A stretch of DNA of 48,475 bases from Brachyspira sp. G79. Its GTDB lineage: Bacteria; Spirochaetota; Brachyspiria; Brachyspirales; Brachyspiraceae. Below, piece by piece: positions 17,060 to 20,202 of this stretch; the first letter of the stretch is position 1; each line of letters opens with the position of its first letter. The translations under genes were made by a program, and so were the position numbers. The stretch is taken from positions 934,397 to 982,871 of the forward strand of contig NZ_JQIU01000008.1 in the NCBI RefSeq assembly GCF_002379365.1. Reading direction: 5' to 3'. The notes beneath the pieces were generated by a model. That model saw only the letters and a list, made by a program, of their open reading frames with translations, was not told where the DNA came from and searched no databases.

Positions 17060-18511
17060 TCATATATCTTTCTCATCAATGCCCAAAGCTTTAAGTACAC
17101 CTAATCCGTAGGCTTTGTCCACATTCATACAATTTTTAACATGTCTTAATTTTACTTCTTTAGTAACGCCGTTCATATCTCTTGCCGTGTTTTCAAATAA
17201 TACTTTTTTCTGCTCATCAGTCATAAGATTAAATAAAGCTCTTGCATCAGTATAGTAATCATCATCATCTTCTCTGTAATCATATCTGAAAGCATCACCA
17301 TAAAGTTTTAGAGGAGGCTCAGCATACTCTTTTTGCTCTTTCCATTCACCCTGAGAGTTTGGTTCATATTCTACTTTAGAGCCATTATTAGAATCTACTT
17401 TCATATATCCGTCTCTATGATAAGTATTAGCTTTAAACTTAGGAGCATTTACTGGTATGCTTGAATAATTAACGCCAAGTCTATATCTTTGAGTATCAGT
17501 ATATGAGAATAATCTTCCTTGAAGCATTCTGTCTGGAGAAAAACCAATTCCCGGAATTATTGTAGAAGGACTGAATGCTGACTGTTCTACTTCTGCAAAA
17601 TAATTTTCAGGATTTCTATTTAATTCTAAAACTCCTACATCAATTAAAGGATATTCTTTCTGAGACCAAGTTTTAGTTAGATCGAATGGATTTCTTTTGC
17701 TTGCATTAGCTTGTTCTTCTGTCATTATCTGAATCTTCATATTCCATCTTGGATAATCTCCTCTTTCTATAGCTTCAAATAAATCTTTTTGAGAGCTTTC
17801 TCTGTCTTTTGCTATTACTGCTGCTGCTTCTTCATCAGTAAGATTTTTAATGCCCTGCTGAGTTTTGAAATGGAATTTTACCCAAAATCTTTTATTATCT
17901 TTATTTATAAAACTATAAGCATGACTGCTGAAACCATGCATATATCTGTAGCTATAAGGTATTCCTCTGTCACTCATATCTATTGTTATTTGATGAATAG
18001 CTTCAGGCAAAGAAGTTAAAAAATCCCATTTATTCTGAGCACTTCTCATATTTGTTTTAGGGTCTCTTTTTACAGCATGATTTAAATCTGGGAATTTTAA
18101 AGGGTCTCTAAAATAAAATACTGGAGTATTATTCCCTACCAAATCCCAGTTTCCTTCTTCTGTATAGAATTTAATTGCAAATCCTCTGATATCTCTCTCG
18201 GCATCTGCAGCTCCCCTCTCTCCAGCTACTGTAGAAAATCTTACAAATAAATCAGTTTTCTTTCCTATTTCAGAAAATATTTTTGCTTTGGTATACTGTG
18301 TTATATCATGTGTAACTGTAAATGTACCGTATGCCCCAGAACCTTTTGCATGCATTCTTCTTTCTGGTATTACCTCTCTATCAAAATGTGCCATCTTCTC
18401 CATAAACCATACATCTTGAAGAAGCATAGGTCCTCTAGGTCCTGCTGTAATTGAGTTTTGATTGTTTTCAACTGGAGCCCCAAATTCAGTTGTTAATTTT
18501 TTATCAGACAT
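17060..18511 (-). CDS. katA: Heme catalase (small-subunit type)
   Basis: A 483-residue monofunctional heme catalase that dismutates hydrogen peroxide in the cytoplasm. Conserved parts are the N-terminal [22 protein letters not shown], catalytic His54 in [27 protein letters not shown], the distal Asn127 in [17 protein letters not shown], and the proximal heme-tyrosine motif [14 protein letters not shown]. Length fits the short clade-3 bacterial enzymes, which lack the C-terminal flavodoxin-like domain. AAGGAG precedes the ATG. The promoter region carries an 18-bp perfect palindrome overlapping its -35 box and spacer, suggesting repression by a Fur/PerR-like protein. The gene is transcribed alone. 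Confidence 0.97.
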
Positions 18512-18579: not shown

Positions 18580-18618
18580 GACTTAATCATAATTTTTTTA
18601 TTATTTTATATTTTAATA

Positions 18619-18824
18619 TGAAACTTTTTTAATATTTATACGTCTAATATATCAAACAGATATATGATTATATATTTTGGAGGTTTGTGTTAAATTAAAA
18701 GCATATTTATTTTAATATGCCTTCGCTTAAAACTTTTGAATGACATATTTATAAAAGTTTTACAGTGTTGTACAATATTAAAACGGATAAAACTGCTTTA
18801 TAGTAGTATACTGCAGTTTTATCC
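18619..18824 (+). repeat. Structured intergenic element, copy A (possible small RNA)
   Basis: About 205 bases without a coding frame, in a 700-bp gene-free stretch between katA and moxR. The copy opens with a block containing TTTATACGTCTAATAT (18635-18650), then TTTTGGAGGTTTGTGTTAAA (18676-18694 area) and GCTTAAAACTTTT. It ends in a perfect 12-bp hairpin, GGATAAAACTGC (18785-18796) with GCAGTTTTATCC (18813-18824). Inner hairpins are GCATATT/AATATGC (18701-18720) and a 10-bp TAAAACTTTT/AAAAGTTTTA stem (18728-18762). The order of blocks matches copy B. Plus-strand sense is suggested by the end hairpin followed by AT-rich sequence. Confidence 0.55.
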
Positions 18825-18910
18825 AAAATTATTATTTAATTTTTAATGACGCTGTTTGAAAATATTTCAATAAATAATTATATAAATTTTATTTTTAGCA
18901 ATTTTTTATA

Positions 18911-19118
18911 GGGAACTTTTTATAGATTTATACGTCTAATATGTTAAATAAAGCTGATTTATAAAATTAAATCGTTTTAGAGGTTTATGTTAAATTTTTA
19001 AAGGAGGTTATTTTTGCTTAATACTTTTAATGATGTAAACTAAATTTCATGATTTTAAAGTGTTATGCATATAAAGCTGCTTTGAACATTTTGGAGGTTT
19101 ATGCGGTTCAAAGCAGCT
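18911..19118 (+). repeat. Structured intergenic element, copy B (possible small RNA)
   Basis: Diverged duplicate of copy A, offset by 292 bases. It shares GAACTTTTT, TTTATACGTCTAATAT (18927-18942), TTTTAGAGGTTTATGTTAAA, GCTTAATACTTTT and AAAGTGTTATGCATA. It ends in a perfect 15-bp hairpin, AAAGCTGCTTTGAAC with GTTCAAAGCAGCTTT. The loop of that hairpin contains GGAGGTTTATG, a third copy of the GGAGGTTT block. The terminal hairpins of the two copies differ in sequence but both pair perfectly, which favours conserved structure. It is followed by a T-rich tract (GTTTGTTTTTATTT). No known RNA family is recognised. Confidence 0.55.
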
Positions 19119-19157
19119 TTAGTTTGTTTTTATTTGATTAATAAATGCTTACCTTAT

Positions 19158-19195
19158 AAAAAAGCCTATATAAAATTATTATATAGGCTTTTTAT
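19158..19195 (-). terminator. Terminator downstream of moxR
   Basis: AAGCCTATATA pairs with TATATAGGCTT across a short AT loop. T runs flank both sides, so it may stop transcription from either strand. Confidence 0.8.
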
Positions 19196-19212
19196 TTTTC
19201 AAGTATATTTTT

Positions 19213-20202
19213 TTAAGGCACATTTATACTAGCAAGCAAGTTTTCTATTATCATATCGCTATTAATATTTTCTGCCTGTGCTTCATAGCTTATGCTTATT
19301 CTATGCCTTAATATTTCATAAGCAACTGCTCTTATATCTTCTGGCATAACAAATCCCCTTCCCTGCATCATAGCATTAGCTTTTGCTGCTTTTGTAAGGT
19401 ATATTCCAGCCCTTGGAGAAGCACCGTATTCTATATATTCACTTTGAAGTTTATATTCTTTTGGATTTCTAGTGGCGTCTATAATATTAACTATATAATC
19501 AATTAATCTTTCTTCTATATGTATTTGATTAGCCAATTTTCTTAATTTTTCTATAGTTTCTATAGTAGTTATTGATTTTAATTCTTCTGGTTTTGAAGAA
19601 GACATATTTTTTATAATAGTTTTCTCTTCGCTTTTAGTAGGGTATTTTACTATTACTTTGAGCATAAATCTGTCAACTTGTGCTTCTGGTAATGGATAAG
19701 TACCTTCCTGTTCTATAGGGTTTTGAGTTGCAAGTACCAAAAATACATCGGGCAGCTGATAAGTAGTATCTCCTATAGTAACCTGATGTTCACCCATAGC
19801 CTCTAAAAGAGCAGACTGTACTTTAGCAGGCGAACGGTTTATTTCATCTGCCAATATTATATTTGAAAATATTGGTCCTTGTTTTGGTACAAATGCCGAG
19901 TTTTTTATATCGTAAATTTCTGTTCCCACAATATCAGCAGGAAGTAAATCGGGTGTAAACTGTATTCTTTTGTAGCTTGCATCTATAGTACTTGCCAATG
20001 ATTTTACAGTTAAAGTTTTAGCAAGCCCAGGTACTCCTTCTAATAATACATGCCCATCACATATAATACCCAAAAGAAGTTTGTCTATCATATTTTCCTG
20101 ACCAATTATTACTTTTTTTATTTCGCTTTTTATAGCCTGCACAACATCAAGTGCCATTTTTGAGGCTTCAGAAATAGCCTGCAAAGAATTATTTTCTGTC
20201 AT
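19213..20202 (-). CDS. MoxR-family AAA+ ATPase
   Basis: A 329-residue AAA+ chaperone-like ATPase. Motifs in order: Walker A GVPGLAKT, the VKSLASTIDASYKRIQFTPDLLPADIVGTEIY segment typical of MoxR, Walker B NIILADEINRSPAKVQSALLEAM, sensor 1 LATQNPIEQEGTYPLPEAQVDRF and sensor 2 YGASPRAGIYL. Length and motifs are complete. MoxR proteins usually act with von Willebrand factor A proteins to mature enzymes or envelope complexes. Here the start lies one base after the stop of a BatD-like membrane gene, so they are surely co-translated. The usual DUF58 and VWA (BatA/BatB) partners are absent from the neighbourhood. Confidence 0.93.
   Translation of the reverse strand: MTENNSLQAISEASKMALDVVQAIKSEIKKVIIGQENMIDKLLLGIICDGHVLLEGVPGLAKTLTVKSLASTIDASYKRIQFTPDLLPADIVGTEIYDIKNSAFVPKQGPIFSNIILADEINRSPAKVQSALLEAMGEHQVTIGDTTYQLPDVFLVLATQNPIEQEGTYPLPEAQVDRFMLKVIVKYPTKSEEKTIIKNMSSSKPEELKSITTIETIEKLRKLANQIHIEERLIDYIVNIIDATRNPKEYKLQSEYIEYGASPRAGIYLTKAAKANAMMQGRGFVMPEDIRAVAYEILRHRISISYEAQAENINSDMIIENLLASINVP

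Follow-up and report, generated by a model that had tools for sequence, protein, structure and literature searches.

Two related non-coding units lie in tandem between a catalase gene and the gene of a MoxR-type AAA ATPase in the gut spirochaete Brachyspira sp. G79. In our reading, to which we give a probability of about 0.6, the two copies specify decoy (sponge) RNAs that are induced by an ECF sigma factor and titrate an anti-Shine-Dalgarno small RNA (here called S), thereby reinforcing the envelope-stress response. The window, meaning the whole stretch of 48,475 nt that was analysed, and the S and sigma loci elsewhere in the same genome contain the features listed in Table 1.

Table 1. Coordinates of the two units, their flanks and the associated loci (window positions unless a locus is named; energies of predicted pairing with S in kcal/mol).
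Feature	Position	Strand	Remarks
Catalase gene	17060..18511	-	flank, outside the element
Copy 1 unit	18611-18838	+	contains promoter block, GGAGG block, terminal hairpin
Copy 1 ECF-sigma promoter	18620..18650	+	GAAACTT (18620-18626), spacer, CGTCTAA (18641-18647)
Copy 1 RNA (predicted)	18651..18838	+	approximate ends; kept in G008, decayed in G010
Copy 1 S site (predicted)	18678..18697	+	UGGAGGUUUGUGUUAAAUUA; -20.4, best in the 48-kb window
Copy 1 terminal hairpin	18785..18824	+	GGATAAAACTGC...GCAGTTTTATCC; arms of 18 nt with 89% complementarity and a perfect 12-bp core
Copy 2 unit	18903-19131	+	contains promoter block, GGAGG block, terminal hairpin
Copy 2 ECF-sigma promoter	18911..18942	+	GGGAACTT (18911-18918), spacer, CGTCTAA (18933-18939); G000:C8:953309-953335
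Copy 2 RNA (predicted)	18943..19131	+	approximate ends; may extend as far as the 19193 terminator
Copy 2 S site 1 (predicted)	18979..18997	+	AGAGGUUUAUGUUAAAUUU; -16.3
Copy 2 S site 2 (predicted)	19000..19010	+	AAAGGAGGUUA; -14.1
Copy 2 S site 3 (predicted)	19092..19104	+	UGGAGGUUUAUGC; apical loop of terminal hairpin; -17.2; opening cost small
Copy 2 terminal hairpin	19072..19121	+	16 perfect bp; GGAGGTTTATG in the 18-nt loop
Bidirectional terminator	19159..19193		common to moxR; homologous terminator ends Spy-like gene in G002
MoxR-type AAA ATPase gene	19213..20202	-	flank, outside the element; syntenic anchor
S candidate sRNA	L098:1462-1535 (G000:C8, downstream of dnaA)	-	own promoter and terminator
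Sigma operon: two Spy-like proteins, ECF sigma factor, zf-HC2 anti-sigma factor	L212:1019-3009 (G000:C8)	-

Two related units and their hairpins

Repeat searches found the copies at 18611 and 18903, in register with a spacing of 292 nt and 83% identity across 46 nt. A 22-nt block (TTTTGGAGGTTTGTGTTAAATT / TTTTAGAGGTTTATGTTAAATT) was 91% identical between them, and GGAGGTTTATG-like copies were found at three positions (18674, 18974 and 19088). Local alignment of the whole units on the + strand scored 74, as compared to 24.0 (sd 3.3) for shuffled sequences, and none of 500 shuffles scored as well; with the promoter removed the score was 39 as compared to 22.5 (sd 3.3), again with 0/500. The pair of copies reported by a sequence-only reading of this DNA is thus real. 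Most of the similarity came from the first 46 nt (TTTATACGTCTAATAT etc.) and a second block, GAGGTTTRTGTTAAATT. Two occurrences of TTTATACGTCTAATAT were present in the window against 0.17 expected, even when two mismatches were allowed. The region 3' of the GGAGG block was only weakly similar (27 vs 19.1, sd 2.9, a score that 11/500 shuffles reached), so of the ordered shared blocks in that reading the first block and the GGAGG block held, while GCTTAA.ACTTTT and AGTGTT carry little weight.

Both + strand units folded better than their shuffles (z = -5.2 for copy 1 and -4.3 for copy 2), and likewise the - strand of copy 2 (z = -5.4). The sequence-only reading had also described a hairpin at the end of each unit and a third GGAGG-type copy within the loop of the last one, and these were found. 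Its argument that changed sequence with kept pairing points to selection on RNA structure was discarded, since the terminal hairpins of the two copies could not be aligned with each other and homology between them was not demonstrable. Among species the copy 2 stem differed by G-U changes only, on the + strand; the copy 1 stem was invariant in G008 and absent from G010. The hairpins are stable and their U tracts weak, with the only strong terminator at 19159-19193. The end given for copy 1 RNA is approximate, as its hairpin lacks a good U tract; this transcript could continue into copy 2, and copy 2 RNA possibly ends at 19193. An Rfam search of the window and the S locus gave nothing above gathering score other than the tRNA-Ser of the window. 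One trpB-motif match (19068-19200, 31 bits with a gathering score of 59) was rejected, as it corresponds to the copy 2 hairpin plus the adjoining terminator. Phage and plasmid collections gave no match.

No ORF of more than 60 aa spans either unit. After the GGAGG of the shared block come only frames of 3-4 codons, in copy 1 never more than three. Judged at the sequence level, both RNAs would be untranslated, as is expected of an sRNA sponge or decoy. An AUG follows the SD-like sequence of copy 2, and GUG/AUG that of copy 1, and the units might be read as ribosome decoys sequestering 30S subunits or as mini-ORFs giving tiny peptides (MLNF, MIN) from GGAGGUUUAUG. However, the 3-nt distance from SD to start is short, the peptides would be minute, and the frames after the loop site vary between species; this explanation was placed low and is very improbable.

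Both copies carry an ECF-sigma promoter

The first shared block, which had been taken for RNA structure, is a promoter instead (GGAACTT-N-CGTCTAAT), matching that of an autoregulated sigma operon of the ECF (RpoE) type and of the regulon in 26/26 Brachyspira genomes searched. The RpoE/sigma-E consensus consists of GGAACTT, about 16 nt and TCTAA, and the first block of copy 2, which reads GGGAACTTTTTATAGATTTATACGTCTAATAT, is very close to it. The -35 variant of copy 1, GAAACTT (AAACTT), was also found in G003 (L021), upstream of an exported-protein gene. Across the 26 genomes the pattern GAACTT-N13-16-CGTCTAA gave 194 matches as compared to 22 for the reversed pattern, and every genome had matches. 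Nearly all of those inspected were located 25-60 nt upstream of secreted-protein genes, and BLAST matches of the first block in other genomes mostly lay immediately upstream of such genes.

Two of the promoter matches in the window's genome are upstream of the operon encoding two Spy-like proteins, the ECF sigma factor (Sigma70_r2, r4_2) and a zf-HC2 anti-sigma factor. Autoregulation of the sigma factor is hence very probable, and copies 1 and 2 would fall within its regulon. By their promoters both copies look like ECF-sigma (RpoE-type) regulated sRNA genes, and they appear to be switched on by the envelope-stress sigma factor. A regulon of small exported proteins and lipoproteins, with the autoregulated sigma operon (L212), was conserved across Brachyspira. 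The operon resembles CnrH/CnrX and Spy/CpxP-type systems in combining an ECF sigma factor, a zinc-finger anti-sigma factor and an LTxxQ-type periplasmic protein under autoregulation, a likeness of gene content, with the Spy-like protein scoring just under the curated cut-off of PF13801 (Metal_resist).

Candidate small RNA S and its predicted sites in the copies

The exact 11-mer GGAGGTTTATG occurs at only two sites in the window's genome, namely the terminal loop of copy 2 and, in antisense, S. We consider S a candidate, previously undescribed sRNA gene of ~75 nt downstream of dnaA. From its sigma-70 promoter (TTGACA-TATAAT) it would run through a 5' hairpin (GTATTGTTAAATTAATAC) and the unpaired AATTTTTCATAAACCTCCTTA to a terminator (ATCACCCTG...CAGGGTGAT, then T). 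Its predicted single-stranded seed, AAUUUUUCAUAAACCUCCUUAUC, is complementary to the second shared block of the copies, GAGGTTTRTGTTAAATT. Exported proteins that begin with MKK have the start region AAGGAGG-UUU-AUG-AAAAA, to which the seed is also complementary. S was found in 23/26 Brachyspira genomes and was missing from G001, G003 and G019. Its 46-nt core is essentially invariant (one 1-base deletion and one substitution, both in the 5' hairpin), unlike the sequences on the promoter side and in the terminator loop, which diverge. A search of 84,980 species genomes for a 22-mer of S gave exact matches in Brachyspira records only, and the best Rfam match of S was far below threshold, giving no known family. 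Anti-Shine-Dalgarno sRNAs are exemplified by RsaE/RoxS. Like them, S has an unpaired, C-rich stretch that is the complement of SD and start codon; it differs in lacking a known-family match and in being confined to Brachyspira in the collections searched.

In two of the genomes without S, paired ECF-sigma promoters were observed on the - strand, 157-169 nt apart (L210 in G001, L211 in G003). Each is followed by an RNA of ~90 nt with a terminator-like hairpin and with TTTTTTCATATGAGACTCCTC, or a variant of it, antisense to a ribosome-binding site plus ATGAAAAAA. As both genomes are without S, these anti-RBS sRNAs look sigma-dependent, in the manner of RybB/MicA.

When duplex energies of the S seed were ranked over the 48 kb (9,684 windows, both strands), the copy 1 site came first and the copy 2 sites took ranks 2, 6 and 15, the loop site (site 3) being the second-best partner. 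At most 1/500 shuffles of either target or seed reached the best energy observed for either copy. Net of the opening cost, pairing was about -15 to -16 at the best sites; sites 1 and 2 of copy 2 are in part folded against each other. The GGAGGTTTATG of the copy 2 loop is invariant in three species. In both copies the predicted complementarity to an sRNA seed is thus beyond chance, as expected of a sponge RNA. The GGAGG share of the pairing is expected for any ribosome-binding site, S being anti-SD by nature, and the claim rests on the match being longer (extension UUUAUG..AAAUU), on the units having no ORF and on S sites having been kept repeatedly.

The sequence-only reading had proposed two homologous small RNAs, possibly displaying GGAGG. 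Their own ECF-sigma promoters, the lack of an ORF, the conserved GGAGGUUUAUG site and the conservation of copy 2 above that of synonymous sites support this proposal well. The displayed motif stood; its display as a free Shine-Dalgarno sequence did not, since pairing sites for a second sRNA explain it best.

GGAGG in an apical loop, found once here, together with a genome that encodes CsrA, brings to mind RNAs of the CsrB/RsmZ kind, which titrate CsrA through GGA motifs in loops. The GGA sites are few, however, and mostly follow UU rather than A-N (A-N-GGA occurs at copy 2 site 2 only), and the conserved UUUAUG(UU)AAAUU extension would be left unexplained. CsrA titration was accordingly ranked low, as a remote alternative.

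A trans-acting role of the RybB/MicA kind would have the sigma-dependent copies pair with envelope mRNAs directly, S binding and destabilising them instead of being titrated. Such a role would suit the predicted ORF-less transcripts from a sigma promoter, and the tandem anti-RBS-seed sRNAs behind the same promoter type in G001 and G003 speak for it. The conserved unpaired motif of the copies is, however, RBS-like (sense), no anti-RBS seed was found in them, and the fit to S is far above chance; we regard this role as unlikely.

Targets of S and the proposed loop

Gene starts of the window paired with S at -9.9 on average (sd 2.9). The lowest value, -16.6 kcal/mol, belonged to the ribosome-binding site GAGGGAGATTTTTATGAAAAAATTAAT of an exported protein (946-995, + strand), the mRNA start that suits S best within the window. 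The background consisted of sampled gene starts, and part of the locus set had been picked by the motif itself. Outside these motif-picked loci the strongest candidate target was spy2, the second Spy-like gene of the sigma operon (GATAAGGAGARTTTATGAAAAA): -21.3 in the window's genome, -26.0 in G010, -23.7 in G015 (L054) and -22.9 in G005 (L196), with a range of -22.8 to -23.7 across L045, L196 and L054. The pairing was less strong in G018 (-17.0) and weak in G002 (-12.9).

The strong computed pairing at the spy2 ribosome-binding site suggests a loop between S, the sigma operon and the decoys, of which we infer both the direction of regulation and the outcome. In this model the envelope-stress ECF sigma factor would start both + strand non-coding RNA genes, each from its own promoter, and the resulting RNAs would imitate a ribosome-binding site plus start codon through GGAGGUUUAUG. 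These mimic sites would pair with the single-stranded seed of S, a predicted anti-Shine-Dalgarno repressor of envelope-protein mRNAs that start with ATGAAAAA, including the spy2-sigma-antisigma operon. With the sigma factor active, copies 1 and 2 would be made and S would become occupied by one site on copy 1 and three on copy 2, one of them displayed in a loop. The mRNAs repressed by S, and with them the sigma operon, would then be freed and the stress response reinforced.

Hfq (PF17209) gave no match in seven Brachyspira genomes, while control genomes were positive. A more specific formulation, which we put forward tentatively and at somewhat less than even odds, is a two-RNA envelope-stress switch in a genus without detectable Hfq, in which a constitutive, essentially invariant anti-RBS sRNA acts against the ECF sigma operon and sigma-induced decoys without an ORF, evolved at least twice from the leader of a sigma-regulated chaperone gene, titrate this sRNA and so provide positive feedback.

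Conservation and origin of the units

The syntenic region of the two units was found in two further Brachyspira genomes, G008 (91%) and G010 (76%), the exact copy pair being confined to three species. Both changes in the copy 1 site of G008 preserve or improve the pairing with S. In G010 copy 1 has lost its promoter match, S site and hairpin, and copy 2 retains three S sites, with a 4-base insertion near site 2. Over 189 aligned bases, without gaps, copy 2 RNA is 91.5% identical to that of G010. Third codon positions reach 82.9% in catalase and 86.7% in moxR, and the spacer that separates the two copies has 71% identity plus gaps.

Beside moxR, G002 and G020 carry the promoter, then a structured leader in which GAGGTTTATG/GGAGGTTCAT motifs recur, then an ORF of the Spy-like (Metal_resist-like) type. 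The ribosome-binding site of this ORF, UAAGGAGGUUUAUGAA, is a perfect 16-nt complement of S, and the gene terminates in the same bidirectional terminator. The locus consists of promoter, short leader and ORF in G009, G021 and G024, and in G018 of promoter and three S sites (-24.4, -16.6, -15.8) with no ORF. This synteny supports the view that the units began as leader sequence of a Spy-like gene beside moxR, whose ORF has since been lost. In the moxR tree G018 is sister to G002 and G020 (support 1.0), and the window's genome (G000), G008 and G010 form a separate clade. This topology implies two ORF losses; the Spy-like ORF was probably lost at least twice, with S sites retained.

With promoter, leader and Spy-like ORF at the locus in relatives, and with copy 1 decayed in G010, the units could also be a transcribed but functionless vestige, the leader of the lost gene. 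Against this, copy 2 is conserved above the third codon positions of both neighbours and keeps its three S sites, and S sites survived two separate ORF losses, which makes a mere vestige quite improbable.

Other leaders with matches to S were observed as well. The G011/G013/G014/G016 clade (L147, L148, L150, L171) has a conserved doublet, AGGAGGTTTATTAATTATTAGGAGGTTTATGAAACGAGA, right after ribBA, followed by an ORF of 8-13 codons only; it may be a further S decoy within an mRNA. In G004-G006 (L164, L165, L167) an ECF-sigma promoter precedes a long leader with AAGGAGGTTTATGAAAA, up to 19 nt of which are complementary to S, and an apparent small-ORF remnant, upstream of the gene for a GYR-rich exported protein.

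Relation to known systems and significance

Known sponge or decoy RNAs include the chbBC mRNA for ChiX, SroC for GcvB and 3'ETS-leuZ (summarised or cited in PMC6191717). The decoy RNAs proposed here share with them sites complementary to an sRNA seed, an origin from an mRNA or remnant and a predicted titration; unlike them they would be stand-alone ECF-sigma genes with 1-3 RBS-mimic sites per RNA, in genomes where Hfq was not found. RybB, MicA and MicL, which depend on RpoE (PMC8103513), are likewise small RNAs with an RpoE-type promoter in an envelope-stress regulon. The Brachyspira RNAs differ from these three in their RBS-like motif, in their proposed target, which is another sRNA, and in that Hfq was not found.

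A literature search on Brachyspira sRNAs, regulatory RNAs, transcription start sites and sponges returned no report. If our reading is true, Brachyspira gains a core sRNA (S) and a sigma regulon for envelope stress whose promoter is defined. The finding also hints at base-pairing regulation without a recognisable Hfq. The two units would then represent a decoy RNA in the course of evolving from an mRNA leader, and as the relatives display the locus in its ancestral coding form, as a leader of intermediate stage with several S sites, and as decoys without an ORF, the origin of a sponge RNA would be directly testable in this genus.
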